From contig QHVT01000004.1 in assembly GCA_003223645.1 (NCBI GenBank), forward strand, positions 371,334 to 435,333: a stretch of DNA of 64,000 nucleotides, in the 5' to 3' direction. This DNA is from Acidobacteriota bacterium. GTDB lineage: Bacteria > Acidobacteriota > Thermoanaerobaculia > Gp7-AA8. The notes below the pieces were generated by a model that was not told where the DNA came from, ran no database searches, and saw nothing but the letters and a program-made list of their open reading frames with translations. Position numbers and translations under genes: made by a program. Below, one piece after another: positions 4,065 to 31,807 of this stretch; the first letter of the stretch is position 1, and each line of letters opens with the position of its first letter.

Positions 4065-5150
4065 CTAATCGCGAGCCACGAGAAACAGGTCACGGAGGTT
4101 GTTTCCGGACGGCGCAATCATAATCGGCTCACCGATTTGCGTGGCAATCCGCAGAGAGTCTGACGCAGCGAGGGCGGCTTCCCATTCCGGACTGCCGCCG
4201 ATGTTGTCACGATGCGGCAAATAGATGCCGGCGACGCCGCTGTTGCCATCCACGCCATCCGAGCTGGCGAACAGCGCCTCGGCGGTACTGCGCATGGCGA
4301 AGCGGACGGCGAGCTCGGTACAGCGTCCGCCTCGGCCGGGACCTTTGATTTTGACGGTGGGCTCGCCGCCGGCGACGATTTCTTTTTGTTGCGCGAGCAG
4401 CGATGCCGCTTCTTCAACGTCGCATTCGATTGGATCCGGCAACCGTTGCGCGCCCATCAACTCCGCGGCGGTCGATGTCAGCGTGTCGTTGTCGGCGATG
4501 AGGATCATGTTGCGCGTGCTTGGTCCCGATGCAACGTCTTCGAGTCGTCCGCGCGAAACATCGGAATACACCAGTGTCGCAACATTGCCGCGCACACGCT
4601 CACCGAGTTTTCCGCCTTTGATCGCAGAGAGTTTTTTCCGCTCCGCGTTGATCGGGCCGATCGCCAGACCCGACGCAATGAGCTGCGCGTTGCGCTCGAT
4701 CAACTCGTCCTCGCTGTGTCCCGCGAGCGGAACTTCGACGCACGCCGATCCGCCGCCGGAGACGAGAAAGAGAATGTCGCGATGCGCGTCGACGAATTCG
4801 ACGAGCGCGCGTCCCGCTTCGAAACTCGCGCGCGTCATTTGCGGATGACCGCCGACGTGAATCTCGACATGCATTGTGGAGCGGCGGCCGCTTCGGCCGC
4901 CGGATTCTCGCGAGTACCGGCGGCCGGGAGCGGCCGCCGCTCCACCAGGCAACTTGTATCCCTCCGGAATCGCAACGAACGCGCTCTCGACGTCGTGCAC
5001 TGCCGCAACGCCATCGAGCAACGCACCGGCGCACTTGCCGATGGCGACGATGTTGGACGGCAGGCTGGAGAGCCTGCCCCACACGCGCTGCACCATTTTT
5101 TCCGGAGCGCAGCGCTCGAGCGTTGTGAGATAGATCGCTTTCAAGTCCAC
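4065..5150 (-). CDS. Glycerate 2-kinase, MOFRL/GckA family, with an in-frame palindromic insert
   Basis: 361 residues. Family features are LVSGGGSA, the conserved NAERKKLSAIKGGKL block, DVSRGRLEDVASGP, GGEPTVKIKGPGRGGR and a C-terminal SGNNLRDLFLV matching the usual 'GTNVNDL' signature of MOFRL-type glycerate kinases, which phosphorylate glycerate to 2-phosphoglycerate. That product is the substrate of enolase, encoded 1.6 kb away. Residues about 69-92 (Ala/Gly/Arg-rich, ending GRRST) are not family sequence. They are encoded by palindromic element A1 and interrupt the region between VAIPEGYKLP and MHVEIHVGGHP. Without the insert the protein is about 337 residues, shorter than the usual 420-450, so it is a compact member. 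The gene diverges from the diguanylate cyclase with only about 23 bp between starts. Confidence 0.85.
   Translation of the reverse strand: MDLKAIYLTTLERCAPEKMVQRVWGRLSSLPSNIVAIGKCAGALLDGVAAVHDVESAFVAIPEGYKLPGGAAAAPGRRYSRESGGRSGRRSTMHVEIHVGGHPQMTRASFEAGRALVEFVDAHRDILFLVSGGGSACVEVPLAGHSEDELIERNAQLIASGLAIGPINAERKKLSAIKGGKLGERVRGNVATLVYSDVSRGRLEDVASGPSTRNMILIADNDTLTSTAAELMGAQRLPDPIECDVEEAASLLAQQKEIVAGGEPTVKIKGPGRGGRCTELAVRFAMRSTAEALFASSDGVDGNSGVAGIYLPHRDNIGGSPEWEAALAASDSLRIATQIGEPIMIAPSGNNLRDLFLVARD
4876..4945. repeat. Palindromic element A1, inserted in frame in the glycerate kinase
   Basis: A 70-bp imperfect palindrome beginning GTGGAGCGGCGGCCGC and ending with its complement GCGGCCGCCGCTCCAC, with a central AT-richer part (attctcgcgag). 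The same arms recur at 23512, 23944, 27836, 32694, 35064 and 58908. Here it is translated without a stop into about 24 residues. Confidence 0.9.
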
Positions 5151-11561: not shown

Positions 11562-11679
11562 CTCGGTTACTCGGTTACGCGGTTACGCGGTTACGCGGTT
11601 ACGCGGTTACGCGGTTACGCGGTTGCGCGGTTGCGCGGTTTTGCTGCGTGACCGCGCGACCGCGCAACTGCGCAACCGG
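11562..11679. repeat. Word-type hairpin element, family D (copy 1)
   Basis: The 8-bp word CGGTTACG is tandemly repeated about seven times, drifts to CGGTTGCG, and is followed by the complementary arm (GCGACCGCGCAACTGCGCAACC). It fills the space between the XRE stop and the Shine-Dalgarno of the NfeD-like gene. Other copies: 21246, 29401, 31808. Confidence 0.9.
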
Positions 11680-19241: not shown

Positions 19242-19279
19242 TTCGAGGGCAGATTTTGCTTCGCGAACCAGATTTTTAT

Positions 19280-19308
19280 CTCGCGAGCTAATTCATTTAG
19301 CTCGCGAG
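19280..19308. terminator. Stem-loop downstream of acyl-CoA dehydrogenase
   Basis: A 12-bp perfect stem (CTCGCGAGCTAA / TTAGCTCGCGAG) with a 5-nt loop, starting 38 bp after the stop codon and followed by AAAACTTTT. It may act as a terminator. The inner CTCGCGAG is itself palindromic. Confidence 0.55.
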
Positions 19309-19359
19309 CTAAAACTTTTGGATCGCGGCGATGCCGGAACCTGGCGATCCGCACGTGAA

Positions 19360-19878
19360 AACAGGCGAGTTGCGCGTGCAAACAGGCCAGTCGCGCATGC
19401 AAACAGCCGAGTTGCACATGTGAACAGGCGAATTTCACATGCAAATAGCCGAGTTGCACATGCAAACAGGCGAATTTCACATGCAAACAGGCCAGTTTCA
19501 CATGCAAACAGGCCAGTTTCACATGCAAACAGGTCAGTTTCACATGCAAACAGCCGAGTTTCACATGCAAACAGGCCAGTTTCACATGCAAACAAGCCAG
19601 TTTCACATGCAAACAGGCCAGTTTCACATGCAAACAGCCCAGTTTCACATGCAAACAGGCCAGTTTCACATGCAAACAGGCCAGTTTCACTGCAAACAGC
19701 CCAGTTTCACATGCAAACAGGCCAGTTTCACATGCAAACAGCCGAGTTTCACATGCAAACAGGCCAGTTTCACATGCAAACAGCCGAGTTTCACATGCAA
19801 ACAGCCGAGTTTCACATGCAAACAGGGCCGGTTGCACATGCAAACAGGGCCAGTTGCACATGCAAACAGGCGAGTCGC
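19360..19878. repeat. 21-bp minisatellite, about 24 tandem units
   Basis: Unit ATGCAAACAGGCCAGTTTCAC or close variants (GGCCAG, GCCGAG and GGCGAA in the middle; TTTCAC or TTGCAC at the end), repeated from about 19360 to 19878. The 5' units are most diverged. One unit at about 19689 has lost a base. The whole 19242-19985 gap holds the stem-loop, this array and hairpin G3, and no gene that I can support. Because 21 is a multiple of three, all frames stay open on both strands and give false heptapeptide-repeat ORFs. Confidence 0.9.
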
Positions 19879-19970
19879 ATCCTGAGCCGCAAAGACGCCG
19901 AAGGATCTCCGAATACGCAACTGTTGCGCATTTCGAGATCCTTCGCCGTCTTCGCGGCTCAGGATGACGG
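19877..19970. repeat. Word-type hairpin element, family G (copy 3)
   Basis: Begins GCATCCTGAGCCGCAAAGAC and ends GCGGCTCAGGATGACGG, with inner arms GAAGGATCTC and GAGATCCTTC. Directly abuts the minisatellite on one side and the HMG-CoA reductase start on the other. Confidence 0.9.
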
Positions 19971-19985
19971 TTGTATCCTCGCGTC

Positions 19986-21245
19986 GTGAATCCCCGCATC
20001 AAAGACGTCCTCGCCGGCATCCTCGCAGGAGCGACGCCCGAGGAGCGCGCGCGCAATCTCGCGCCGCATCACGACGCGCTGCCGCCGTCGATCCCCGCGA
20101 AGGACGACGACTCGCGCGACGCGATGGAGAAGCGCCGCGCGTTCCTGCGCGAGCGCGGCTTCAAAATCGATCAGCTCGCCGGCGAAGGAAATGAAATCGC
20201 GCCGGAAGAGTTGCGCGCGAACATCGAGAGCCTCATCGGATTCGCGCGCATCCCGGTCGGCATCATCGGGCCGCTGCGCGTGAACGGTGTGAATGCGCGC
20301 GGCGATTTTTATGTCCCGCTCGCGACGACCGAGGGAGCGCTCGTCGCTTCGTATCAACGCGGCGCGAAGTTGATCAGCATGGCCGGCGGATGCGCCACGC
20401 TGTGCGTCGTCGAGTCGGTCCTGCGCGCGCCGGGGTTCGTCTTCAATTCGCTCGTCGAAGCCGGCGCGTTCCTCGTCCACGTCATCTCGCAATTCGAGGC
20501 GATGCAGGCGCGCGTGAGCGAGACGTCGCGGCACGCGCGGCTCGTGCAGCTCGATCCGATCGTCTCCGGCAAAGAGGTCTACCTCGTCTTTCACTACACG
20601 ACCGGCGACGCGGCCGGACAGAACATGGTCACGTTCGCGACGAACGCGCTCGTGACGCATCTGATCGAGACCGCGCCGGTGAAGCCGTTGACATGGTTCA
20701 TCGAGGCGAACATGTCGGGCGACAAGAAGGCGACGCAGCTCGCGTTTCAGGGCGCGCGCGGAAAGAAAGTCGTCGCCGACGTGACGATCCCGCGCGAGCT
20801 CGTCGTCAAGTATCTGCACGCGGAGCCGGAACAGATTTTTCGCTACTGGCAGCTCGCGATCGTCGGCAGTTTGCAGTCGGGATCGATCGGGATGCAGGGA
20901 CACTACGCGAACGCACTCGCGGCGCTGTTCATCGCCTGCGGACAGGACGTCGCGTGCGTGTCCGAGGCGTCGGTGGGACTGACGAGGATGGACGTGACGA
21001 AGAGCGGCGATTTCTATTGCTCGATCTCGCTGCCGAATCTCATCGTCGGCACGGTCGGCGGCGGCACGCACCTCCCCACCGCCCGCGAATGCCTCGATCT
21101 CCTCGGATGCTTCGGCCCCGGCGGCGCGAAGAAGTTCGCCGAGATCTGTGCGGCGGTCGTGTTGAGCGGCGAGATCTCGATTGCCGGCGCGCTGGCGTCG
21201 GGCGAGTTCGCGAGCGCGCACCAGGCGTTCGGTCGGAAAAGTTGA
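19986..21245 (+). CDS. Hydroxymethylglutaryl-CoA reductase, class I
   Basis: 419 residues from a GTG at 19986 just after hairpin G3. Class I motifs are present: RIPVGIIGPL, the catalytic glutamate in TTEGALVAS (Glu116), SGDKKATQ with the catalytic lysine, DAAGQNMVT, and VGTVGGGTHLPTARECLDLLG. Near the C-terminus, ASAHQAFGRK holds the catalytic histidine position (family SHxxHNR). The enzyme reduces HMG-CoA to mevalonate with NADPH, committing to the mevalonate route to isoprenoids. No other mevalonate-pathway gene is in the window. It heads a plus-strand group with DUF3419 and a phytol/dolichol kinase-like gene, which suggests specialised isoprenoid-lipid synthesis. Class I in a bacterium suggests ancient transfer. 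Confidence 0.93.
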   Translation: MNPRIKDVLAGILAGATPEERARNLAPHHDALPPSIPAKDDDSRDAMEKRRAFLRERGFKIDQLAGEGNEIAPEELRANIESLIGFARIPVGIIGPLRVNGVNARGDFYVPLATTEGALVASYQRGAKLISMAGGCATLCVVESVLRAPGFVFNSLVEAGAFLVHVISQFEAMQARVSETSRHARLVQLDPIVSGKEVYLVFHYTTGDAAGQNMVTFATNALVTHLIETAPVKPLTWFIEANMSGDKKATQLAFQGARGKKVVADVTIPRELVVKYLHAEPEQIFRYWQLAIVGSLQSGSIGMQGHYANALAALFIACGQDVACVSEASVGLTRMDVTKSGDFYCSISLPNLIVGTVGGGTHLPTARECLDLLGCFGPGGAKKFAEICAAVVLSGEISIAGALASGEFASAHQAFGRKS

Positions 21246-21330
21246 TGGTTACGCGGTCGCGCAGTCGCGCGGTTTTTGGATTGTTTCGGCGCCGCGTAAC
21301 CGAGCGACCGCGTAACCGCGCAACCGCAAT
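21246..21330. repeat. Word-type hairpin element, family D (copy 2)
   Basis: GGTTACGCGGTCGCGCAGTC on the left and GCGTAACCGAGCGACCGCG on the right around a T-rich loop. It starts at the HMG-CoA reductase stop and ends at the DUF3419 ATG, leaving no visible Shine-Dalgarno between. Confidence 0.88.
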
Positions 21331-22362
21331 ATGACGCGAATCGACGAGCGCGCCCGCTTCGACATCATCCGCTACGCGAATTCCTGGGAAGACGCCGACG
21401 TGCTGGTCGACGCGCTGCGCCCCGCGCCCGGCAAGCGCATGTTGGCGATCGCGTCGGCGGGCGACAATGCGTTTGCCTTGCTCGCGGGCGGGGCGGAGGT
21501 GGTGGCGGCGGACTTGAGCGCCGCGCAGCTCGCCCTCGTCGAGTTGAAGCGCGCGGCGATTCGTCAGCTCGACAACGATTCTGTTCTCGGATTTCTCGGC
21601 GTGAGCGAGATGCGGAATCGCTGGGGCGTGTATCAGTCGCTGAACACGACTGGCGAATTCGATCGAGAGGTCATCGAGCGCGGCATCATCCACGCCGGCC
21701 GCTTCGAAAACTATTTCCGCATTTTTCGCAAATGGGTCCTGCCGCTCGTGCACTCGAAGCGCGACGTCGAGAAATTGCTCGCCGAAAAATCGCGTGACGA
21801 GCGTCAGCGCTTTTATGACAACGAGTGGAACACGTGGCGCTGGCGCGCGATGTTCCGCGTCTTCTTCAGCCGCTTCGTGATGGGCCGCACCGGTCGCGAT
21901 CCCGAGTTTTTCCGCTACGTCGAAGGCTCGGTCGCCGACCGGATTTTCAAACGCGCCGAATATGCCGCGACCGTTCTCGCGCCGCACGCGAATCCGTACA
22001 TGACGTTCATCTTCACCGGCAACTATCGCAACGTCCTGCCGCGCTATCTGCGCGAGCTCGACGCCGTGCGCGCGAATCTCGACAAGCTCACGCTCGTGCA
22101 AGGCTCGATCGAAGACGCCGCCACCGGCACGTTCGACGGCTTCTATCTCTCCGACATCTTCGAGTACATCGATCCCGCAATCACGCGCGCGATCTTCGAG
22201 CGGCTGCGCGCGCACGCGAATCCAAACGCGCGCTTCGCGTACTGGAACCTGCTCGTTCCGCGCAGCGGACTCGGAACGCCGCTCGAAGCGGAAGCGCGCG
22301 CGCTGTTCGCGCGCGACAACGCGTTTTTCTACAGCGCGTTCGTGCTCGAGGAACACGCGTGA
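21331..22362 (+). CDS. DUF3419 protein, BtaA-like aminocarboxypropyl transferase
   Basis: 343 residues. The DUF3419 family includes BtaA, which transfers the 3-amino-3-carboxypropyl group of S-adenosylmethionine to diacylglycerol in betaine-lipid synthesis. Here RYANSWEDADVLVDAL matches the family opening (YA-CWED), LAIASAGDNAFALLAGG and VVAADLSAAQLALVELK form the SAM-binding site, and FDGFYLSDIFEYID is a later conserved block. No BtaB methyltransferase follows, so the product may be a different polar lipid. Start ATG 21331 directly follows hairpin D2. The stop overlaps the next gene's GTG (GTGA). Confidence 0.85.
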   Translation: MTRIDERARFDIIRYANSWEDADVLVDALRPAPGKRMLAIASAGDNAFALLAGGAEVVAADLSAAQLALVELKRAAIRQLDNDSVLGFLGVSEMRNRWGVYQSLNTTGEFDREVIERGIIHAGRFENYFRIFRKWVLPLVHSKRDVEKLLAEKSRDERQRFYDNEWNTWRWRAMFRVFFSRFVMGRTGRDPEFFRYVEGSVADRIFKRAEYAATVLAPHANPYMTFIFTGNYRNVLPRYLRELDAVRANLDKLTLVQGSIEDAATGTFDGFYLSDIFEYIDPAITRAIFERLRAHANPNARFAYWNLLVPRSGLGTPLEAEARALFARDNAFFYSAFVLEEHA

Positions 22363-23471
22363 GCGGCGTCCTCATCGTCCTCGGCTCATTCACGATCCTT
22401 CTCCTCACGGCCGAAATCTGGGCGCGCCGCGGCGCCAAGCCGGAGTGGACGCGCAAGCTCGTGCACCTCGGCGGCGGCCTGATCGGACTCGCGCTGCCGT
22501 GGCTCATCGAGTCGCCGTGGGTCGTGCTGATTCTCACGGCGTCGCTCTCCGCGCTCTTCCTCCTGGGTGAGCGGCTCGACGTCATGAAGTCGCTGCACAA
22601 GGTCGAGCGCAAGACGCGCGGCAGCGAGTACTACCCGCTCGCGATCTGGCTCGTGTTCGTCATCGCCGCCGATCGCAAGTGGCTCTACCTCGCGGCCGTG
22701 CTCACGCTCGCCGTCGCCGACGCATGCGCGGCGCTGATCGGCGGCAGCTACGGAAAACATCGCTACGAAGTCGAAGACGAATACAAGAGCGTCGAAGGCT
22801 CGGTCGCGTTCTTCATCGTCGCGTTCTTCGCGACGTCACTGCCGATGCTGTTCATGACGACGCTGCCGCGCGCGACGTGCGTGCTGTCCGCGCTGCTCGT
22901 GGCGATGCTCGTGACGATCTTCGAGGCGATCTCGCTGCGCGGCACGGACAACCTCTTCGTGCCGATCGCGGTCGTGTTCGTGCTGCAGAAGATCACGACG
23001 AAAACAGTCCCGCACATCGCGATGCAGAACGTCGCGCTGATCGCGATCGTGATCGTTGTCCTGCTGATCGCGCATCGCATCGAGTGGTTCAACGCGGGCG
23101 GCGCGCTCACCTTCATTCTTTTCCTCTTCGCCACCTGGTCCCTCGGACCACACTTCCGCTGGGTCGTCCCGGTCGTCATCGGCTTTGCGGTCCTCGTGAT
23201 CGCGCGCGTCTTCATTGGGCGGCGCGACCGTCGGCGGCTGAGAGTGACTGCCGTGTCGCGCACGGTGATCGTGCCGTTCCTCTTTCTGCTCGCCGCGAAT
23301 ACGACATCGCAGTTCGAGCGCTTCTATCCGTCGTACATCGCGGCGTGCGCGGTGGTGTTCGCGATGATCTTCGCGACGATGATCAACACGCGCATCGCCG
23401 CGTATCGCGGATGGGCCGCGGTGACGTTTCTCCTTTCACTGGTCGCCGGTCTCGCCGCGCTGGCTCTCTGA
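22359..23471 (+). CDS. Phytol/dolichol kinase-like integral membrane CTP-dependent kinase
   Basis: 370 residues from a GTG at 22359 overlapping the DUF3419 stop by four bases. About ten membrane helices. RKLVHLGGG near the N-terminus and ADACAALIGGSYGKHRYEVE with KSVEGSVAFF are the nucleotide-binding signatures shared by phytol kinase VTE5, dolichol kinase SEC59 and yeast diacylglycerol kinase Dgk1. Its substrate is a prenol, polyprenol or diacylglycerol; the sequence alone cannot choose. The C-terminal half is a second hydrophobic block of unknown role. Likely cotranscribed with HMG-CoA reductase and DUF3419. Confidence 0.78.
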   Translation: MSGVLIVLGSFTILLLTAEIWARRGAKPEWTRKLVHLGGGLIGLALPWLIESPWVVLILTASLSALFLLGERLDVMKSLHKVERKTRGSEYYPLAIWLVFVIAADRKWLYLAAVLTLAVADACAALIGGSYGKHRYEVEDEYKSVEGSVAFFIVAFFATSLPMLFMTTLPRATCVLSALLVAMLVTIFEAISLRGTDNLFVPIAVVFVLQKITTKTVPHIAMQNVALIAIVIVVLLIAHRIEWFNAGGALTFILFLFATWSLGPHFRWVVPVVIGFAVLVIARVFIGRRDRRRLRVTAVSRTVIVPFLFLLAANTTSQFERFYPSYIAACAVVFAMIFATMINTRIAAYRGWAAVTFLLSLVAGLAALAL

Positions 23472-23618
23472 TATGGACTGCGGCGGCTACGCCGCCGCTT
23501 GCGGCGATCCAGTGGAGCGGCGGCCGCTTCGGCCGCCGGTCCCTCGCGAGAAATCCGGCGCCCGAGAGCGGGCGCCGCTCCACTATGAAAGACGGCAGCG
23601 TAGCTGCCGCAGTCCAAA
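23472..23618. repeat. Nested palindromes: family B element split by family A element (A2)
   Basis: Outer arms TATGGACTGCGGCGGCTACG (23472 on) and GGCAGCGTAGCTGCCGCAGT (23593-23612) are family B. Between them, 23512-23583 is a complete 72-bp family A palindrome (GTGGAGCGGCGGCCGC ... GCGCCGCTCCAC). The composite starts one base after the kinase stop codon and fills the gap to the convergent PEP-dikinase stop (23634). Confidence 0.9.
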
Positions 23619-23633
23619 GGTGAACGCGCGCGG

Positions 23634-25994
23634 TCAGTGAAGCTCGACGACGCCGGTCGAGCCGTCCATCGTCACGACGTCGTCAGTCTTGACGAGCTGC
23701 GTGAGACCGCGGATGCCGACGATCGTCGGGATGCCCATCTCGCGCGCGACGATTGCGGAGTGCGACAGGATCGAGCCGCGCTCGATGAGGAGGCCGGAGA
23801 TCGACGGATAGAGCGGGACCCAGCCGGGATCGGTGCGCTCGGCGACGAGGATCTCGCCGTTGAGCCGCAGGTCGTCGTTGGGAGAGCGCAGGACTTTCAC
23901 GGGACCGGTGACGATGCCGGGGGAGCAGGCGATGCCCGTGATTCCGGCGGCCGAGGCGGCCGCCGCTCCACTTCGCGAGCGGAAGCGATTGCGGTTGTGG
24001 GCCATCCCGAAGGTTTCGAAGCGTTCGTCGATGTCGGGATTCGCGCGGTATTCGTCGAATTCTTTTTTGCGCAACGCGGCGAGGCCGCGCAGATCGGTCG
24101 TGAGCGCGGTTCCTTTGACGTAGTCCCACAGCTCTTCGAGACCGAGGTAGAAGACGTCGCCGGGAGAATCGAGGATGTGCTCTTCGGTGAGACGGCGGCC
24201 CATCGCGCGGACGACTTCGCGCACGAGGCCGAAGATGCGCGTGCGCGCGAAGCGCATGTTCTCGCGATTGCGGACGCCGGTGCGCGCGCGCTTCAGCACG
24301 AAGCGGAACGCGATTTTTTTCGGGAACGAGAGCTCCGCGAACGCGCGCGCTTCCGCCTGCGCGCGCACGTCCGGCTGCGCCTTCACTTCGTTGACGAGGT
24401 AGTTGCGGATGAACGACAGCACGACATCGGGACGGTCGCGCAGCGGCGGCTCTTCCAGCTTCAGCTCGTTCATGCCGCGGAAGCCGTACAGCTCCATGTA
24501 GCGGTCGAATTGCTGCGCGAACTTTTCGTGCACGCGCGCCGCTTTCAAATCGCCGCGCGTGATCGCGTCGCGCAACGCGTCGTTCGGGCGCGCGAGATCC
24601 GCGATGCGCAGCAGCATCTTCGCCGGCTCCGTGCTCTCGATGCCGCCCTCGCCGGAGAGGAGATCGTTATGAAGCGGCGTGAGTTTCTTCAGCGTGCCGT
24701 AGAAGATCATCACGAAGAAGTCGTTGATGATCGGCGCGCGCCACGACCAGAGCACACGGTCTTCGAATTCGTAATAGAGCTGCATCAGCTCGTGCGGCCG
24801 CAGCGCGTCAAAGTCGATCGACGACCAGCGGTCGTAGTGCGTTTTGAAGTTCGCTTCGAACTCCGCGGTGAGTTTGTTGATGCGCGCAAAGTTGCGCATC
24901 AACCGCCACACCAGCGGCAGCATCGCCAATCGACTCGTTTTCTGTTCGGGCGCGGCGGTGGTCTCGCGCACGCCCATCATCGACTCCATGAACTTCCGGT
25001 TCTGCTCGTAGCCGGGAAAGAGCCGCACCATCGCATACCAGTTGAGGAGGTTGTAGAAGACCTGGCCGCGAAAGAGGCCGAGCGTGTTCTCGAAGACGTA
25101 CTTGTTCTCCTTCACGACGCGTTCGGGGATGCCCATCACCTGCGCGAAGAGGCGATAGACGATCGCGTAGGCGCGGCGGATCACGCTGAACGTCATCGGC
25201 GAGGTGACGCCGGAGAAGCTCTCGACGATGTTCGAGTTGTCCCACAGCAGGCGGTTGCCGGCCGCGGGGCCGTACTCCTCGATCGTCGTGATCGGACGCG
25301 CCTGCAGAATCCACAAACCGTTTGCGTCGAACGCAAACTCGATGTCCTGCGGCGTACCGAACGCGTTCTCGATCGCGATCGATGTCTTCGCCAGCTCGCG
25401 CACCTGCTCGTCGGTGAGACTCGGCGCGTTCGGATTTTCGACGCGCACGCCGACTGCTTCTTTTTTCTCGACGATCTCCGCGTGGATCGAGAGATCGCTT
25501 TTCTGCACGACAAACGTATCGGCGTCGAAGCCCTGGCTGACCAGACCTTCGCCGAGTCCGAAGAGCGCGCTGATGACGATCTCGTTCGTGTCCTGCGTCG
25601 TCGGATTCGCGGTGAAGACGACGCCGCTCGTCTGCGAGTGGATCATCTGCTGCACGATGACCGGCATTGGCTGGTCGTCGATCGCGATGCCGTGCTCTTT
25701 GCGGTACGCGAGCGCTCGCTCGCTGTACGCTGACGCGCGCACCTTCTCGATCGCGCTCGCAATCTCGCTGCGGGGGACATTGAGAAAGGATTCGTGCATG
25801 CCGGCGAACGATGCGCCCGCGGCGTCTTCGCCGACCGCGGACGATCGCACGGCGAAGAGTTCTCCCTGGAGAGCGGGCGTCCCGCCCGCCCCCGGGAGGC
25901 GGGCAGGATGCCCGCTCTCCTCCACATAAAACGCGGGCACGCGGAAGCCGAGCTGCGCGAGCTTCGCGAGGTTCGCGGCTTTACCGGAGCCCAT
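23634..25994 (-). CDS. PEP-synthase/PPDK-like phosphotransferase with two in-frame palindromic inserts
   Basis: 786 residues. It has the order of pyruvate-phosphate dikinase/PEP synthase or rifampin phosphotransferase: ATP-grasp (about 1-230; KAANLAKLAQLGFRVP, FAVRSSAVGEDAAGASFAGM, VIVQQMIHSQTSGVVFT, EFAFDANGLWILQARP), a long central helical domain (about 245-650), and a C-terminal swivelling domain (about 680-786) with catalytic His in GSILSHSAIVAREMGIP. ATP would phosphorylate the His and then an unknown acceptor. Two parts are repeat-encoded: residues about 25-42 (element C1), where the family normally has a longer segment, and SGAAAASAAGI (half element A3) just before the His domain. Last gene of a four-gene overlapping operon; overlaps UbiA by 14 bp. 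Confidence 0.82.
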   Translation of the reverse strand: MGSGKAANLAKLAQLGFRVPAFYVEESGHPARLPGAGGTPALQGELFAVRSSAVGEDAAGASFAGMHESFLNVPRSEIASAIEKVRASAYSERALAYRKEHGIAIDDQPMPVIVQQMIHSQTSGVVFTANPTTQDTNEIVISALFGLGEGLVSQGFDADTFVVQKSDLSIHAEIVEKKEAVGVRVENPNAPSLTDEQVRELAKTSIAIENAFGTPQDIEFAFDANGLWILQARPITTIEEYGPAAGNRLLWDNSNIVESFSGVTSPMTFSVIRRAYAIVYRLFAQVMGIPERVVKENKYVFENTLGLFRGQVFYNLLNWYAMVRLFPGYEQNRKFMESMMGVRETTAAPEQKTSRLAMLPLVWRLMRNFARINKLTAEFEANFKTHYDRWSSIDFDALRPHELMQLYYEFEDRVLWSWRAPIINDFFVMIFYGTLKKLTPLHNDLLSGEGGIESTEPAKMLLRIADLARPNDALRDAITRGDLKAARVHEKFAQQFDRYMELYGFRGMNELKLEEPPLRDRPDVVLSFIRNYLVNEVKAQPDVRAQAEARAFAELSFPKKIAFRFVLKRARTGVRNRENMRFARTRIFGLVREVVRAMGRRLTEEHILDSPGDVFYLGLEELWDYVKGTALTTDLRGLAALRKKEFDEYRANPDIDERFETFGMAHNRNRFRSRSGAAAASAAGITGIACSPGIVTGPVKVLRSPNDDLRLNGEILVAERTDPGWVPLYPSISGLLIERGSILSHSAIVAREMGIPTIVGIRGLTQLVKTDDVVTMDGSTGVVELH
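23944..23971. repeat. Half palindromic element A3, in frame in the PEP-dikinase-like gene
   Basis: CCGGCGGCCGAGGCGGCCGC followed by CGCTCCAC is the right half of family A. Translated on the minus strand as SGAAAASAAG, at the linker before the phosphohistidine domain. Confidence 0.85.
25868..25920. repeat. Palindromic element C1, in frame in the PEP-dikinase-like gene
   Basis: A 53-bp palindrome with arms GGAGAGCGGGCGTCCCGCCC and GGGCAGGATGCCCGCTCTCC around CCCCGGGAG. It appears base-identical to the copy at 29085-29137. Translated in frame as GHPARLPGAGGTPALQ-type sequence inside the ATP-grasp domain. Confidence 0.9.
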
Positions 25995-26907
25995 ACTTCC
26001 TCACGAGCTCGACCGCGACGAGGAGGTCGAAGACGATCATGTACATGCCGGCGTACACCTCCATCATCTTCGCGTGCCGCGGCGTCGGACGGAAGCGGTA
26101 CTGGAAGAAGCCGAAGAGGCAGACGGCGTAGAGCGCGACGAGCGCGACGTAGAACCAGCGCGATACGCCGAGGTGATGGCCGACGGAGGCGACGAGCGCG
26201 GTGTCGATGGCGCGGATGGCGAGGACGAGATATGCCGCGCCGAACGTGCCGAAGATTTTCGTGTACGACTCGACGCCGTCGATCTCCTGTTCCGGCGCGC
26301 GGATTTTGCGCGACACCTCCCAGTTGAACGTAACGAAGAAGCCGACGAACGCGTAGACCCAGAACCACGGCGGCGCGTCCCATGGCCAGCGCCGCGTCGC
26401 GAACGAGAACACGAGCAGCGACAGCAGCGGCATGACCAGCATGTGCGACGTCGCGTAGAGGAGGAAGTAGCGTTTCAGAAAATCGCGTGCGAAAAACTCG
26501 CGCAACATGAGCAGTGAGAAGCCGAAGGCGATCGCCCACGCGGTGAGCGCCTGCGGGCCGCGCAGCGCAGCGATGACGATTTCCATCGTGATCGCGATCC
26601 CGCCTGCGATTTTTAAATGACGCAGCGTGACGAGTCCGCGCTGCAGCACGCGGTTCGGGAAGTAGCGGCAGTCTTCTTCGTAGTCCTTGTGCTCGTCGAA
26701 GACACGGACGTGGAAGAAGAAGGAGACGAGCATCAGCATCCCCAGGAACGACCAGCGGTCGTAGTGCATCACGGGATGTTGCTTTGACAAGTGCTGCGTC
26801 AGCGCGAAGGCGAGGAATTGATTGGAGGAGTAGTACGTGAGGATGAGCAGGACGTTCGCGATCGGGGGGAAGCGCTCGTTGAGGTAGGCGAGGAAGTTCT
26901 TCAGCAC
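25981..26907 (-). CDS. UbiA-family prenyltransferase-like membrane protein
   Basis: 308 residues, about eight membrane helices. The loop FDEHKDYEEDCRYFPNRVLQ corresponds to the first Asp-rich motif of UbiA prenyltransferases (NDxxDxxxD type, with D-x3-D-x3-D spacing), which binds prenyl diphosphate through Mg. A second acidic cluster (KIRAPEQEIDGVESYTKIFG) sits where the second motif is expected, as in digeranylgeranylglyceryl phosphate and homogentisate transferases. Substrates are not determinable. The GTG start at 26907 overlaps the AMP-ligase stop by seven bases, and its 3' end overlaps the PEP-dikinase-like gene. Confidence 0.82.
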   Translation of the reverse strand: MLKNFLAYLNERFPPIANVLLILTYYSSNQFLAFALTQHLSKQHPVMHYDRWSFLGMLMLVSFFFHVRVFDEHKDYEEDCRYFPNRVLQRGLVTLRHLKIAGGIAITMEIVIAALRGPQALTAWAIAFGFSLLMLREFFARDFLKRYFLLYATSHMLVMPLLSLLVFSFATRRWPWDAPPWFWVYAFVGFFVTFNWEVSRKIRAPEQEIDGVESYTKIFGTFGAAYLVLAIRAIDTALVASVGHHLGVSRWFYVALVALYAVCLFGFFQYRFRPTPRHAKMMEVYAGMYMIVFDLLVAVELVRKYGLR

Positions 26908-28226
26908 AACTGCTCCCTCAACTTCGCGTAATCGATCTTCGAGTTGTGGCGAGGATCGACCGGCAGCGGCTCGCGCGTGACGATCACTTCGTCTGCATCG
27001 ACGCGCTTCTTCACATCCTCCGCAACATCTGCATCGCTTTCGATGACGACGATCAATCGCTCGTTCACGCCCACCGCCGCCACCCGCCGAATGCGTGCAT
27101 CGTCCCCGCGCGCTGCCTGCTCCACCAGTTGCGCGTGCACGGCCACACCGTTCCGCCAGATCGTCGAGTGCACGCGTCCGGCGATGCGAAAGCGTCCTTC
27201 TTCATCGAACCAGCCGGTGTCGCCCATGCGATGCCATTCGTTTTCAGACGCGACGTGCTCGCCGCGAATGAGCAGCTCTCCGACTTTGTCGTCGATCAAC
27301 TCCAGCTTCGCGTCAACACCGTTAACGATGCGTCCCGCGAGATAGCCGCGACCTCCCGCCGCCAGCCGCTCCCGCGCCTCGATGTGCGCCACCGGCTCCG
27401 CCTCGGACGATCCGTACGCGATCACGATCTCCGCGTCCGGCCACGCGGCGATCCACGCGCGCAGCTGCGCGTCCGTGACCGGCGCGCCGCCGGTGAGAAT
27501 GCGGCGGAAGCGCGGGCGATCTGCGAGCGCCGCGAGCTTGTCGAAGAGCGGAGGCGAAGCCGTGGCGGTGGTGGCGTTTTTCGCTGCGCGTGCGACGAGC
27601 TGCGGATCCAGCGCGTCAATGCGTTTGAGGTCGATCGGCGGAATGATCGTCGTGACGCCCAGCGCGAGATTGTTCAGCGCGAAGATCGGAAACGTGCAGA
27701 GATCGACGTCGCCTTCTTTCGGAGGAAACGCCTCTGCGAGCCGCTCGTGCTGCGCGATCAGGATGCGATGCGTGCGGATCACTTGTTTCGGCGTTCCGCT
27801 GGAGCCGGTGGTAAACGTGACGATCGCGGCGTCCTGTGGAGCGGCGGCCGCTCTCGGCCGCCGGTTCGTCGCGAGAGGTCGGCGGCCGAGGGCGGCCGCC
27901 GCTCCACAGGATACGAGACGAACGATCTGGCTCTTCCAGGTACCGACCCAATGATCCGGTGCGGCCGCGCGCGCGAGTTGGATCATGCGTCGCAGGCCCA
28001 CCCACGGATCGATGAACACGGCGACGCCGCCGGCGTTGAGGACGCCGAGGAGCGAGGCGTAGAGATCGATCGACATCGGCAGCATCAGCATCACGCGGCC
28101 GCGGGCGTGAATGCGCTCCACCCGCTCCCACAACTCGGCGAACGTGATCGCGCGCTTGCCGTCGTAAAAGGCGATCCGCTCCGGATGCGCGCGTGCGGCG
28201 TCGCGGAAGAGCGCGGCTGCGTTCAC
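26901..28226 (-). CDS. AMP-dependent synthetase/ligase (OleC-like), with in-frame palindrome
   Basis: 441 residues from a GTG at 28226 (GTGA overlap with the acyltransferase stop). ANL-family motifs: P-loop TFTTGSSGTPK, YGSSEAEPVAH, MGDTGWFDEEGRFRIAGR with the hinge region, and a C-terminal LPVDPRHNSKIDYAKL that places the adenylation lysine. The PVDPRHNSKI ending resembles OleC/long-chain fatty acid ligases. It would activate a carboxylic acid as acyl-AMP and perhaps CoA ester. About 25 residues (SCGAAAALGRR... to PRAAAAPQD) directly before the P-loop motif are encoded by palindrome A4 and are not family sequence. Shorter than typical 500-550-residue members. Confidence 0.85.
   Translation of the reverse strand: MNAAALFRDAARAHPERIAFYDGKRAITFAELWERVERIHARGRVMLMLPMSIDLYASLLGVLNAGGVAVFIDPWVGLRRMIQLARAAAPDHWVGTWKSQIVRLVSCGAAAALGRRPLATNRRPRAAAAPQDAAIVTFTTGSSGTPKQVIRTHRILIAQHERLAEAFPPKEGDVDLCTFPIFALNNLALGVTTIIPPIDLKRIDALDPQLVARAAKNATTATASPPLFDKLAALADRPRFRRILTGGAPVTDAQLRAWIAAWPDAEIVIAYGSSEAEPVAHIEARERLAAGGRGYLAGRIVNGVDAKLELIDDKVGELLIRGEHVASENEWHRMGDTGWFDEEGRFRIAGRVHSTIWRNGVAVHAQLVEQAARGDDARIRRVAAVGVNERLIVVIESDADVAEDVKKRVDADEVIVTREPLPVDPRHNSKIDYAKLREQLC
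27836..27907. repeat. Palindromic element A4, in frame in the AMP-ligase gene
   Basis: A 72-bp family A palindrome: GTGGAGCGGCGGCCGCTCTC ... GAGGGCGGCCGCCGCTCCAC. Symmetry extends outward a few bases (TCCT before, AGGA after). No stop in the coding frame. Confidence 0.92.
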
Positions 28227-29041
28227 AGTGTGTAGAGATAGTACTCGCGGAACGTGACGCCGTGGCCGGCGTCCATCGACTGCGACGCGTTCCCCTCGTG
28301 CATCAGGCAGTGGTTCGCGGTCGGACGTCCCATCGCCAGCGCGCTCGCGTACGCGCGGTGCAACAGCGCCCATCCGACGTATCCACGCCGGTGCGCGGGC
28401 ACGATGCCGATCGTCTTGTAGTCGACGACGCCCGGCTTCGCGTCCGGATACGCGAACAGAAATCCGACTTCGTCTCCGTTCGCATCCAGCGCAAAGAGCA
28501 CGAGCTCGGGGACGAGCAGGCGCTCGATTCCGGCATACAGCTTCAGGAATTCTTCGCGCGCGATATCGAAGTAAAAACGATTGCCTTTGAAAATCTCCAG
28601 CGACAGACGCCACACCAGCGTCAGCTCTTCTTCGACGCGCGACGCGTCGAATGAGCGGAAGCGATAGCCGCGCTGCAGCGCGCGCGCATGCATCGCGGCT
28701 AACTGGTCTATCAAGGGCGTGACGTCGTCGATGCGTTTCGACGAATAGCGCTCGATCACTTCGAACGGCGACCACAGCTCCGCGTAGTACGGCGGGTTCA
28801 CCGGCTCGAGAAGAAACGGCGGATCGTCGAACGGCCCTACGTTCACGCGGTAGCGATGCCACGTGTCGCCGTCCATCGGTCCGACCACCTGCGTCGCGCC
28901 TTGCGCGCGCAGCGACGCTGCCGCTTCGCGCAAGAGCGCCTGCACTTTTTCGGGCTCGTTCGCCGCTTCGAAAAATCCGATGACGCCGAGATCGGCGCGC
29001 AACATCGCGGTGCAACGCGCGGCAGTGTTCTCGAAAATCAC
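28223..29041 (-). CDS. GNAT-fold acyltransferase
   Basis: 272 residues, GTG start at 29041. VVGPMDGDTWHRYRVN, LFALDANGDEVGFLFAYPD and VDYKTIGIVPAHRRGYVGWALLHRAY (the acyl-CoA pyrophosphate loop) mark a GNAT-type fold with an N-terminal half-domain, similar to enzymes that acylate or aminoacylate lipids and peptides. It ends REYYLYTL, as such proteins often do. First gene of the four-gene unit with AMP-ligase, UbiA and PEP-dikinase-like. The region upstream is a nested repeat (families E and C), so the native start could have been displaced. Substrate unknown. Confidence 0.78.
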   Translation of the reverse strand: MIFENTAARCTAMLRADLGVIGFFEAANEPEKVQALLREAAASLRAQGATQVVGPMDGDTWHRYRVNVGPFDDPPFLLEPVNPPYYAELWSPFEVIERYSSKRIDDVTPLIDQLAAMHARALQRGYRFRSFDASRVEEELTLVWRLSLEIFKGNRFYFDIAREEFLKLYAGIERLLVPELVLFALDANGDEVGFLFAYPDAKPGVVDYKTIGIVPAHRRGYVGWALLHRAYASALAMGRPTANHCLMHEGNASQSMDAGHGVTFREYYLYTL

Positions 29042-29042
29042 G

Positions 29043-29176
29043 ATCCCTCATCCGCCCTTCGGGCACCTTGTCCCCGAACGCCGAGGAGAGCGGGCGTCCC
29101 GCCCGCCCCCGGGAGGCGGGCAGGATGCCCGCTCTCCTCGACGCAGGGAGGGGGTGGCCGAAGGGCGGGCGAGGGG
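29043..29176. repeat. Nested repeat: family E hairpin split by palindrome C2
   Basis: Outer arms CCCTCATCCGCCCTTCGGGC and GCCGAAGGGCGGGCGAGGGG are complementary. Within them, 29085-29137 is a complete family C palindrome apparently identical to the one inside the PEP-dikinase-like gene. It lies between the zinc-ribbon gene's stop (29184) and the acyltransferase start. Confidence 0.88.
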
Positions 29177-29183
29177 TCGAACT

Positions 29184-29396
29184 TCACGGCTTGTCGTCGA
29201 CGCTTTCGTGTCCCTCGTACGACGCGGCGAGACAGTCGCGGCAGATCAGCGGCCCCGGCTTCGCACCGGGACGCGGCACCCAGCCGTGTCGATGCACCGC
29301 GGCCTCGAACGAGCGGATGTACTCGTCGGGAATCTCGCCGACCACTTCGTCCACGACGTCACAGTCGCCGCACTGCAGGACCACCCGGCCTTCCAT
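29184..29396 (-). CDS. Small zinc-ribbon protein, unknown function
   Basis: 70 residues from the ATG at 29396 with GAGGAA upstream; an earlier in-frame ATG lies in repeat D3 and was rejected. Two CxxC pairs (LQCGDCD and LICRDCLAA) about 37 residues apart suggest one zinc ribbon. The middle part (EIPDEYIRSFEAAVHRHGW) looks helical. I do not recognise a family. It is downstream of the M49-like peptidase gene. Confidence 0.7.
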   Translation of the reverse strand: MEGRVVLQCGDCDVVDEVVGEIPDEYIRSFEAAVHRHGWVPRPGAKPGPLICRDCLAASYEGHESVDDKP

Positions 29397-29400
29397 ATGT

Positions 29401-29484
29401 TCCTCGGTTACGCGGTTGCGCAGTCCCGCAGTTGCTCGGCGAAACCAATGCCGCGCAACTGAGTAACCGCGCAACTGAGCAACT
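29401..29484. repeat. Word-type hairpin element, family D (copy 3)
   Basis: CCTCGGTTACGCGGTTGCGC and the opposed GCGCAACTGAGTAACCGCGC. Starts at the Shine-Dalgarno of the zinc-ribbon gene and ends at the stop codon of the M49-like peptidase. Confidence 0.88.
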
Positions 29485-31182
29485 TCACTTCTCTCCCGCC
29501 CCCGCGAACACGGGGTTGATGTCGACCGGGATGTCGCTCAGCTTTGCGATCACGCCCTGCATTTCCGGCGTCGAGACGCCGTACTTGTCGAGGAGGCGCT
29601 GCGCGCGCGCGAAGTCGCCGGTGGCTTCGATCGTCAGGAGCTCCGTGCCGAGGGACTTCACGCCGTCGCGATATTTCGCGGCGTCGATCGTGTAGGTGCC
29701 GTCGCCTTTCGGCGTGACCGCGCCTTTCTCGCGCAGCCAGTTCCACTGCACCGCCGTTCCGCGTCCGTGTGCCTCGCCGATGCCGAAGCGCATCGAGCGG
29801 AACATGAGGCCGGTGTACGTCGCCCACAGCTGCCGCTCGTCGAACGTCGAGAGCAGCTTGTGGTCGCGCGCGTAGAGGACGTTCCACAGTCCGATGACGT
29901 CGGCCTTGCACTCTTCGATGGTCGAGTAGAGGTTCTTGAGCAGCGTGCGCGAGTCGACGCGCTTGCCGGAGCCGGCCGGATCGGGAATCAGTCCCGGGCC
30001 GAGGCCGTGCGAGAGCTCGTGGAAGAGCGTGGTGTTGAAGTAGGCGTCGAACGAGATCGCGTCGCGCAGCGCCGGCTCGAGGATGCGCATCGCCACCGGC
30101 TTGCCGCTCTGACGGAACTTCGCGTCCATCACGTTCTTGAGCAGGACCTTCTTCGAGCCCTTCATCTCGCGCACGGCTTCGTCGTTCGGCAGATTGAAGG
30201 CCGACGTCTGGACGCCACGGCGCGCGTCGCCGGCGGTGTAAATCTCCTGCACGACTTTGATCGGCGACGACGTGCCGCGATTGGGATTCTTGTATTCGTC
30301 CGGCTCGGGGAGGTTCTTCTCCATGTCCGGCAGGTGCTGCGCGTACGCCGCGAGCTTGTCGCTCTCCGGCTTGTCGACGACGTTCACGAACGACTCGAAC
30401 GACGCCTTGTAGTTGAAGAGGTTGTCCTCGTAGACCTCGTACGGTCCGATGACGACTTCGATCGGGCTCTCGAGGTCCATCCAGGCGATGTCGCTGTCGC
30501 GATAGTTGTCCTTCAGGAACGCGTCGCCGAGCTTGGTCAGGTAATTCTTCAGCGACGGACTCGTCGTCAGCGCCGCGGCTTCGCGCAGCTTCGCGGCCGC
30601 CTGCATAAGAAGGTCTCGATACTGCTGCGAGTACGGAATCGTCTTCAGGTTCGCGCCGTCGCGGCGGACGACGGTGAAGAGTCCTTCCAGCGCTTCCTTC
30701 TGATCGGGATGCGCGGCGACGTACTTTTCGAATTCAGCTTTCGTCAGATCGGCCGGATAGAACGCCGCGCCTTCCGGCTTCTTCGTGAACGGCGCGATGA
30801 ACGCTTCGTCCTGCGCGAGGCGGTCCCACTTTCCTTTGTTGACGACGAAGTATTCGTATCCGGCGCGATCGAGATCGGATGCCGTCGACTGCGCTTTCAG
30901 TTTGTCGCGCAGCGCGGGATTGTCTTCGGACACCTGCCGCCAGTAGATCTCGTCGATGAATTGCGAGGCTTCAATGAGCTTCGCGACGACCTGCTGCTCT
31001 TCGGCATTGAGGAGCGAGTGGTCGTAGTCGACGACCGTCTTCGGCAGTTGCGCGAGACGGTGCGGAACGTCTTGTTTGATCTCCAATTTTCCGGAGCTCT
31101 CCTGCGGCGTTGCAGGCGCGCTGGTTTCGGTTTTCTGGCAGGCGGCGGCGAAAAGAGCGAGCGCGAACAGCAGCTTCTTCAT
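29485..31182 (-). CDS. M49-like (dipeptidyl-peptidase III family) lipoprotein metallopeptidase
   Basis: 565 residues from the ATG at 31182. MKKLLFALALFAAACQK is a lipoprotein signal with Cys15 as the lipidation site. The zinc site is FHELSHGLGPG (HExxH) with a downstream EECKAD supplying the third ligand, as in the bacterial DPP III-like group often annotated 'Zn-dependent hydrolase'. The remainder is helical, with LPEPDEYKNPNRGTSSPIKV before the active site. It probably cleaves peptides in the periplasm. Divergent from the FHA gene, 43 bp between starts. Confidence 0.85.
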   Translation of the reverse strand: MKKLLFALALFAAACQKTETSAPATPQESSGKLEIKQDVPHRLAQLPKTVVDYDHSLLNAEEQQVVAKLIEASQFIDEIYWRQVSEDNPALRDKLKAQSTASDLDRAGYEYFVVNKGKWDRLAQDEAFIAPFTKKPEGAAFYPADLTKAEFEKYVAAHPDQKEALEGLFTVVRRDGANLKTIPYSQQYRDLLMQAAAKLREAAALTTSPSLKNYLTKLGDAFLKDNYRDSDIAWMDLESPIEVVIGPYEVYEDNLFNYKASFESFVNVVDKPESDKLAAYAQHLPDMEKNLPEPDEYKNPNRGTSSPIKVVQEIYTAGDARRGVQTSAFNLPNDEAVREMKGSKKVLLKNVMDAKFRQSGKPVAMRILEPALRDAISFDAYFNTTLFHELSHGLGPGLIPDPAGSGKRVDSRTLLKNLYSTIEECKADVIGLWNVLYARDHKLLSTFDERQLWATYTGLMFRSMRFGIGEAHGRGTAVQWNWLREKGAVTPKGDGTYTIDAAKYRDGVKSLGTELLTIEATGDFARAQRLLDKYGVSTPEMQGVIAKLSDIPVDINPVFAGAGEK

Positions 31183-31225
31183 GACAGTGCGGATTCTATG
31201 CGCGACTCGTGCTAACTTTTCGCCC

Positions 31226-31807
31226 GTGATCATTGAATGTCCGAGCTGCCACTCCAAGTATCAATACGACGAAGAGCGGTTCGAACGAAAACCGTCGAAG
31301 AAGATCAAGTGCGCGAAGTGCGCGAACATCTTCGACATTCACAACCCCGCCTTCGCGCCGAAGCCCGCGCCGTCCGCGCCGGTGGGCGACCGTACGTTCG
31401 CCGGCAACACGCAGCGGCCGAAGATGCCGGTCGACACGACCGAACAGTCGCCGCTGCCGAGTCCGCGCGACACCGGTAAGAGCGAGCCGCTCAAGCTTCC
31501 GGTCGGACGCCGCCTGTCGCTGGCCGTGCTCGACGGCCCCGACGCCGGCATGGTGTATCGCATCGAGAAGCCGCGCATCAGCATTGGACGCGCGAGCGCC
31601 GATCTCACGCTCAATGACACGGAAGCCTCGCGCCTCCACGCCGCGATCGAAGTGCGCGATCAGCTCATCATGCTGAACGATCTCGGCTCGACCAACGGCA
31701 CGCTGATCGGCGGCGAGAAGATCCTCGGCGCGACGGAGATCGGCGACAAAGCGGAGTTCCAGGTCGGCGCGACGACGCTGATGTTGATCGTCACGGAAGA
31801 TGGGTAA
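31226..31807 (+). CDS. Zinc-ribbon plus FHA-domain protein
   Basis: 193 residues from a GTG at 31226. An N-terminal MJ0042-type zinc ribbon (CPSCHSKYQYDEERF ... IKCAKCANIFDI, residues 4-36) is followed by a Pro/Ser-rich linker, and then an FHA domain (about 105-190) with ISIGRASADLTLNDTEASRLHA and LNDLGSTNGTLIGGEKI. FHA domains bind phosphothreonine, so this may be read out by Ser/Thr kinases such as the one at 48904-51180. Followed directly by hairpin D4 and the polysaccharide exporter permease. Confidence 0.88.
   Translation: MIIECPSCHSKYQYDEERFERKPSKKIKCAKCANIFDIHNPAFAPKPAPSAPVGDRTFAGNTQRPKMPVDTTEQSPLPSPRDTGKSEPLKLPVGRRLSLAVLDGPDAGMVYRIEKPRISIGRASADLTLNDTEASRLHAAIEVRDQLIMLNDLGSTNGTLIGGEKILGATEIGDKAEFQVGATTLMLIVTEDG

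Follow-up and report, generated by a model that had tools for sequence, protein, structure and literature searches.

A putative horizontally acquired lipid-biosynthesis gene cluster in an Acidobacteriota genome and its recurrence in distant bacteria

BtaA, the known relative of the DUF3419 proteins discussed here, converts diacylglycerol and S-adenosylmethionine (SAM) to diacylglyceryl-homoserine, as described in the available part of PMC3972451, and homologues of archaeal-lipid genes are known in bacteria of the Fibrobacteres–Chlorobi–Bacteroidetes (FCB) group, according to the available part of PMC7852524. A study of Black Sea lipids links diverse ether lipids to the Planctomycetota, UbiA not being mentioned in the part of the paper available, which also states that the bacterial sources of some ether-lipid biomarkers, the branched glycerol dialkyl glycerol tetraethers (GDGTs), are still unknown (PMC11868695). 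Because of those unknown sources, an uncharacterised cluster with ether-lipid-like features is worth testing. Here we describe such a cluster, comprising seven genes at positions 19986-29041 of a stretch of 64,000 nucleotides from an Acidobacteriota genome (GCA_003223645.1, contig QHVT01000004.1), the whole of which is termed the window below. The seven genes are a real cluster that recurs as a unit in distant bacteria. As the initial annotation had supposed, no described pathway with this gene set was found in the literature searched, a search that left out most subscription journals. Our best explanation, which we hold at about even confidence, is a horizontally acquired lipid-biosynthesis cluster whose product would be a phosphorus-free, betaine-like polar lipid.

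The cluster consists of tightly packed open reading frames (ORFs) in two convergent operons, three genes running rightward and four leftward, with neighbours overlapping by 4 to 22 bases; the sole exception is an 85-base gap between the first two genes. The first of these encodes a 3-hydroxy-3-methylglutaryl-coenzyme A (HMG-CoA) reductase-like protein, denoted HMGR (19986-21245, plus strand; 419 amino acids from a GTG at 19986, a TTG start at 19971 being also open), which matches PF00368 HMG-CoA_red at 1.2e-108 and scores 328.6 bits with TIGR00533, under the cut-off of 441.8. It is followed by a DUF3419 or BtaA-like protein (21331-22362, plus strand; PF11899, 7.7e-49), by its family a probable SAM:lipid 3-amino-3-carboxypropyl transferase, and by a membrane protein (22359-23471, plus strand) that is possibly a CTP-dependent lipid kinase or cytidylyltransferase. 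For the latter we retain the name ‘DolK-like’ from the initial annotation, an assignment based on weak structural similarity to CdsA. On the minus strand lie the genes for a GNAT acyltransferase (28223-29041), an AMP-forming acid ligase (26901-28244; PF00501 AMP-binding, 1.4e-35; nearest to PRK09274 and the OleC-type beta-lactone synthetases), a UbiA-family membrane prenyltransferase with a changed second Asp-rich motif (25981-26907; PF01040, 2.3e-8, 34.1 bits, which is 0.1 below the Pfam cut-off) and a phosphotransferase resembling Rph and phosphoenolpyruvate (PEP) synthase (23634-25994; PPDK_N 7.4e-59, PEP-utilizers 1.5e-24). All seven genes named in the initial annotation are thus ORFs of these extents, and for five of them, UbiA among them just under its cut-off, Pfam gives the family that had been read. 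The DolK-like and GNAT proteins of the window have no match in the Pfam or NCBIfam libraries, and a PDB search with GNAT gave 0 matches; the GNAT label is borne out by its orthologues, which match Acetyltransf_1 (1e-5 in locus L026, 2.5e-6 in L029), and by the L026 orthologue, whose model (pLDDT 83.7) matches tandem GNATs. The N-terminus of the window's GNAT is shorter than in L025 and L026.

The initial annotation had tied the seven genes together by position alone, and their recurrence elsewhere now carries that association further. When genome contigs were scanned with the Rph-like protein, 32 loci were obtained, seven of which (L025-L030, L032) hold the cluster, or such part of it as the contig allows, and one of which (L031) holds a related cluster. 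A UbiA profile built from eight sequences detected 14 of 294 genomes in the phylum of G420 (Planctomycetaceae), 10 of 391 in the class of G424 (Clostridia) and 18 of 288 in the phylum of G419, a Victivallis vadensis metagenome-assembled genome (MAG), counts that include the seed genomes; a search for UbiA in a phage collection found none. With the seeds excluded there remained 41 loci in 39 genomes, picked by UbiA alone, in which neighbours were counted up to 10 kb from UbiA: the Rph-like gene was present in 34, the ligase in 29, GNAT in 28, DUF3419 in 19, the DolK-like gene in 18 and HMGR in 11. If HMGR is set aside and DUF3419, DolK-like, GNAT, AMP-ligase, UbiA and Rph-like genes are taken as the six core genes, 16 of the 41 hold all six, and eight hold all seven. 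For the 23 loci flanked by 7 kb or more on both sides, the corresponding numbers are 22 (Rph-like), 20 (ligase), 19 (GNAT), 14 (DUF3419), 13 (DolK-like) and eight (HMGR), with the six core genes together in 12 and all seven in seven. Adding L025-L032, the window excluded, brings the total to 49 loci, 22 with the complete six-gene core and 10 with all seven genes (L030 and L032 are near-duplicates). These six-core loci span the Planctomycetota, the Clostridia and the phylum to which a Victivallis MAG belongs.

The arrangement of the genes is conserved in pairs. In 22/22 six-core loci DUF3419 adjoins the DolK-like gene and UbiA adjoins the Rph-like gene, and in 21/22 GNAT adjoins the ligase; the exception is L025, where three ORFs on the opposite strand, one encoding a radical SAM protein, lie between them. 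These three pairs are permuted among the loci. The convergent layout recognised in the initial annotation is seen in the window but is not the rule, since 21 of the 22 lie on one strand and only L026 is convergent in the same way. Fusions occur between ligase and UbiA (L026) and between the Rph-like protein and ligase (L029), and the separate ligase of L030, whose place matches the L029 fusion, ends in an acyl-carrier domain. A candidate fusion of UbiA with the Rph-like protein in L116/L117 was dropped, the two matches being in different open frames. Radical SAM genes were noted beside or inside the cluster at L133:1847-2932 (weak B12-binding match) and L025:5764-6912 (SPASM). Four loci on the Planctomycetota side (L108, L109, L112, L113) have UbiA and a ligase; an Rph-like gene is present in two, L112 has a more distant DUF3419 gene, and the four possibly represent a third cluster type.

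The complete set is also found on a plasmid of a cultured alphaproteobacterium, Roseinatronobacter sp. S2 (NZ_CP121116.1, 137 kb), an isolate that comes from a serpentinizing system of pH 12, according to the available part of PMC10508151. The annotated run on this plasmid comprises UbiA, a PEP/pyruvate-binding protein, DUF3419, two hypothetical proteins and an AMP-binding protein, while the gene before UbiA spans the start of the record and is missing from the PLSDB table. Reading through the junction reveals that this gene encodes a cluster-type HMGR (3.9e-162), and the DolK-like and GNAT profiles recognise the two hypothetical proteins (1.9e-69 and 3.2e-63), so that all seven genes form a single operon on one strand.

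The strongest hint of a lipid product with a head supplied by DUF3419 comes from an exchange of modules. Eight related loci (L031, L120, L125-L130) contain UbiA and two Rph-like genes, with GNAT detected in 7/8, and have no DUF3419 or DolK-like gene. They encode instead a CarS-like (CDP-archaeol-synthase-like) protein in 8/8, a phosphatidylserine (PS) decarboxylase-like protein in 8/8 (a weak match, 1.5e-15, in L031) and a CDP-alcohol phosphotransferase in 7/8. Pfam confirms all three in L128 and L130, the CarS-like protein in L031 and L120, and the transferase and PS decarboxylase (PSD) in L125. None of the three was found in the 22 six-core loci, which appear as 23 in that comparison as L121 repeats L030, and no locus among those read holds both modules. 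This pattern points to a common lipid core whose head-group modules can be exchanged.

Several observations point to horizontal acquisition of the seven-gene cluster by the window's genome. The block occupies 19242-29183, between a native acyl-CoA dehydrogenase gene ending at 19241 and a small gene at 29184-29474, and its left edge carries a tandem array (19352-19875; 24.9 copies of a 21-base unit, 89% matches). The next gene (29488-31257) was found in 16 of 20 genomes, the window's own included. Nineteen flank loci were obtained from other genomes, and in all six that hold both flanks (L006-L010, L012) the acyl-CoA dehydrogenase adjoins the 29488-31257 gene and none of the seven lies in between; some have a small gene there, where the window has 9.9 kb. 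UbiA and DolK-like proteins had no match in 59/59 other genomes searched, one of the same genus, a search that covered none of the other five genes except HMGR in the congeneric G001. It is from this absence, together with the adjoining flanks in the relatives, that the block is read as an insertion. Within the window's phylum the UbiA profile detected two of 396 genomes, viz. the window's own and G244, which carries the exchanged-module type. In a UbiA tree of 41 rows the smallest supported set containing the window has eight rows (support 95/99), including rows from Lentisphaerota and Planctomycetota, with a top identity of 61%; this placement, taken with the absence from relatives, suggests horizontal gain. 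Local inheritance was rejected on the same absence and the 2/396 count. The initial annotation had asked for conservation in related genomes: sister genomes lack UbiA and the DolK-like protein, and it is in distant genomes that the set is kept as a block. Its proposed refutation, homologues scattered among sister genomes, does not apply where these two are missing altogether.

Individual proteins give some indication of the chemistry. The best PDB match of the UbiA profile is 6m31, the archaeal digeranylgeranylglyceryl phosphate (DGGGP) synthase, at 1.6e-6, followed by two chlorophyll synthase entries at 0.009. Its first motif (R68, D71, D75, D79) is invariant in 41/41 filtered rows, one a duplicate, and in the second the equally invariant E197, R200, K201 and E208 replace the Asp-rich motif of the archaeal enzyme. 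The Rph-like protein has an ATP-grasp domain, a middle region and a C-terminal His swivel domain whose H745 is kept in 30 of 31 alignment rows (one gap), with no Pfam domain beyond PPDK_N and PEP-utilizers. Its best NCBIfam is NF004881, phosphoenolpyruvate synthase, at 747.2 of 883 bits, and its scores with RIF_Ptrans (256.9 vs 999), RedH (297.5 vs 1350) and PigC (282 vs 1300) are likewise below the cut-offs; the PDB matches 5fbs and 5hv1, at about 1e-54, we take to be rifampin phosphotransferases. The ligase matches NF006754 (2.3e-70) and NF045786 (9.2e-40), each below its cut-off. For DUF3419 the best E-value in a PDB search was only 0.15; a second DUF3419 gene, 36% identical, lies on another contig of the window's genome (L150:9357-10454; G000:C33). 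The AF2 model of the DolK-like protein (pLDDT 72.8) has as best fold match the CDP-diacylglycerol (CDP-DAG) synthetase CdsA (4q2g, probability 0.99), which fits, weakly, a CTP-dependent lipid enzyme and does not tell a kinase from a cytidylyltransferase. A possible resemblance of GNAT to bacterial ceramide synthase found no confirmation, and no papers on the two together came up in the literature search. A slight hint of fatty 2-enoyl chains, from a single locus, is the enoyl-CoA hydratase/3-hydroxyacyl-CoA dehydrogenase gene situated immediately upstream of GNAT in L026.

On these grounds a route can be proposed in which the AMP-ligase would activate an acid, a thioester would be reduced to an alcohol by the HMGR-like enzyme in clusters that have one, and the phosphorylation of an alcohol would fall to the Rph-like enzyme, possibly together with the DolK-like one. 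UbiA could then join an allylic diphosphate in an ether bond, in the manner of archaeal DGGGP synthase, GNAT may add an acyl group, and DUF3419 would use SAM to place an aminocarboxypropyl (homoserine) head on the lipid, yielding the phosphorus-free, betaine-like product; the chain may be isoprenoid or fatty. In the related clusters the DUF3419/DolK pair would be swapped for a CDP-lipid/phosphoserine/decarboxylase module. Our best guess for the product is an ether lipid with a homoserine-type head, and the polar lipid proposed by the initial annotation is still the best reading of the product class, with the exchanged module made up of lipid head-group enzyme families. A more ambitious version, which we hold tentatively and think rather doubtful, is a new bacterial membrane-lipid system with plug-in heads. 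UbiA, the Rph-like kinase and GNAT would be the shared core, with the ligase always present in the DUF3419 type, and the heads would be homoserine (DUF3419) or phosphoethanolamine (CarS-like, CDP-alcohol transferase, PSD). HMGR would be a thioester reductase whose product, an allylic alcohol that might derive from a fatty 2-enoyl chain, would be phosphorylated twice before UbiA forms the ether bond.

The part played by HMGR separates this route from a classical isoprenoid supply, in which HMGR would provide mevalonate for isopentenyl diphosphate (IPP) and UbiA would attach the prenyl chain to a polar lipid. PF00368 was found once each in the window's genome (G000), G419 and G420, always in the cluster; it was not found in G001, in the Clostridia G422, G423, G424 and G426, or in G421, G425 and G244, genomes whose completeness is mostly not stated. 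In 11 of 14 genomes with a cluster HMGR, the window's included, DXR is present (in G705 as a partial match only, 46 bits), HMG-CoA synthase is missing and no mevalonate kinase exceeds the cut-off. HMG-CoA synthase (PF01154) was found in three of the 14 and not in G000, where the best mevalonate kinase match has 87.8 bits against a curated cut-off of 163.05, a cut-off exceeded in two of 18 genomes. The presumed catalytic residues E116, K247, D321 and H412 are kept in 14/14 cluster HMGRs examined, that of L106 being excluded as it is cut by the contig end. The position of the pocket lysine is Leu290 in the window, four residues before a conserved Gly, and holds L, V, M or I in 14/14; four solved HMGR chains have a lysine there when aligned, and two plant-type alignments show a gap placed by the program. 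We take this lysine to be human Lys735, which presumably holds the HMG carboxylate. Lys735, Ser684 and Arg590 are among the residues listed as contacting inhibitors in the available part of PMC3875450. The residue aligned with Ser684 is Glu or Asp in all 14.

From the combination of DXR without HMG-CoA synthase in the 11 genomes and the loss of the pocket lysine in all 14, it is more likely that the cluster HMGR is a repurposed thioester reductase than a mevalonate supplier, which weakens the isoprenoid-supply role given to it in the initial annotation. Four HMGR-like plasmid proteins (Alteromonas, Photobacterium, Sinorhizobium, Streptomyces) tell against tying this loss to the cluster, as they too lack the lysine; beside them the available stretches show no DUF3419, DolK, GNAT, UbiA or Rph-like gene, and two have a ligase-profile match. 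The HMGR-like proteins without the pocket lysine outside the cluster lie at L160:7992-9251, L159:7974-9164, L161:7872-9122 and L162:7560-10334, and the Sinorhizobium gene sits among acyl-CoA carboxylase and indolepyruvate oxidoreductase genes. Classical supply, which would suit the intact fold and catalytic residues, also gains from G1268, G1121 and G1165, which have HMG-CoA synthase and no DXR, with a mevalonate kinase above cut-off in two and just under it in G1268, and in the parts read of which no second HMGR was found; moreover, 5/14 cluster HMGRs have Lys or Arg one residue before the lost lysine, so that a shifted charge is possible, which makes classical supply slightly more probable and also counts against repurposing. 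Set against the 11 genomes, the uniform pocket change and the Clostridia without HMGR, we regard it as decidedly unlikely. A natural product, i.e. a prenylated small molecule, secreted or intracellular, in which the Rph-like protein would be a PigC/RedH-type ligase and UbiA would prenylate the ligase-activated acid, is improbable: the sporadic distribution, the plasmid copy and the sub-threshold matches of the Rph-like protein to RedH (1.9e-88) and PigC (8.5e-84) would suit it, but the exchanged module belongs to lipid head-group families, BtaA works on a lipid, and there is no polyketide synthase, non-ribosomal peptide synthetase, transporter or resistance gene among the seven. Plants salvage prenols with VTE5, VTE6 and VTE2, and a parallel, with the DolK-like and Rph-like proteins converting a scavenged prenol such as phytol to the diphosphate for UbiA, would account for the co-occurrence of these three genes in six-core loci and perhaps for a carrier from a sheep duodenum sample (by its record title). 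We consider it very unlikely, since HMGR, ligase, GNAT and DUF3419 would be left unexplained and the eight exchanged-module loci have no DolK-like gene. Chance neighbourhood, to which the sister genomes without UbiA and the DolK-like gene might speak, has a negligible probability and was rejected, the block being kept in 22 distant loci and on the plasmid.

The polar lipid reading must itself be set against several observations that do not sit easily with it. When the 32 loci from the Rph-like scan were searched with the window's proteins (tblastn, 1e-4), 24 showed no gene of the set other than the Rph-like one, and 19 of the 49 loci fit neither cluster type fully, some cut by contig ends and some, such as L146, not; L146 and L147 have a UbiA match without the other six genes, and L145 has no GNAT. 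HMGR is optional: it is missing from 12/22 six-core loci and does not occur in the six-gene loci of the Clostridia. Only two of the eight exchanged-module loci gave a ligase match. Among the seven genes, the part of the genome to which the check for GGGP (geranylgeranylglyceryl phosphate) synthase and BtaB was confined, there is no GGGP synthase, glycerol-phosphate enzyme or BtaB N-methyltransferase. The RK...E form of the second UbiA motif suggests that the enzyme may not use a normal prenyl diphosphate, the Rph-like family also includes ligases for small-molecule natural products, and the DolK-like/CdsA match is weak (E 0.07, TM-scores 0.25 and 0.32). Finally, the window's Rph-like N-terminus is shorter than in its relatives and contains an in-frame interspersed repeat, which makes activity of this copy uncertain.

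Elsewhere the window copy keeps nearly all of the strongly conserved positions. At positions conserved to at least 93%, it deviates once in DUF3419, once in the Rph-like protein, twice in the ligase, once in GNAT and nowhere in UbiA or the DolK-like protein; the N-terminal part of the Rph-like alignment yielded no such positions and lay outside this check. The ligase also carries an interspersed repeat, and the copy is probably, not certainly, functional. Two families of short GC-rich inverted repeats occur at about 25873-25917, 29090-29134 and 27836-27907, with copies lying within the genes for the Rph-like protein and the ligase and a short distance upstream of GNAT, and with further sites near 4876, 23512, 23958, 32694, 35119 and 58909. 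Elsewhere in the window, a short tandem array of CGGTTACG (9.6 copies) lies at 11564-11640.

If the proposed reading is true, a mobile pathway to a so far unknown polar lipid would be common to several bacterial phyla, and a relative of HMG-CoA reductase would act outside the mevalonate pathway; with plug-in heads, there would be an ether-lipid route unlike the known archaeal and bacterial ones. The whole operon on the plasmid of a cultured isolate makes the question directly testable.

Comparison with described systems shows partial likeness to each. The ligase counts OleC-type beta-lactone synthetases among its nearest named families, but falls below the cut-off, and the seven include no OleA, OleB or OleD family protein. 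HMGR retains the fold and catalytic Glu, Lys, Asp and His of class I HMG-CoA reductases, yet differs in its Leu, Val, Met or Ile in place of the pocket Lys and in its 11 of 14 hosts without HMG-CoA synthase. With PEP synthase, Rph, RedH and PigC the phosphotransferase shares the ATP-grasp and His swivel domains, residues 44-785 aligning to the PEP-synthase model PRK06241.2-2, whereas it scores below every curated cut-off shown, its middle region matches Rph only in part and its gene adjoins UbiA in all 22 six-core loci. In common with the BtaA/BtaB route to diacylglyceryltrimethylhomoserine (DGTS), in which BtaA places the SAM aminocarboxypropyl group on a lipid alcohol (PMC3972451, available part), the cluster has an enzyme of the DUF3419/BtaA family, but it lacks BtaB among the seven and adds UbiA, Rph-like, ligase, GNAT, DolK-like and HMGR proteins. 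Compared with archaeal ether-lipid synthesis, the seven include no GGGP synthase, unlike the co-localised GGGP and DGGGP synthases reported for Cloacimonetes in the available part of PMC7852524, and the second UbiA motif is changed; even so, DGGGP synthase is the nearest solved structure to the cluster UbiA, and the exchanged-module clusters carry CarS-like, CDP-alcohol transferase and PS decarboxylase genes.

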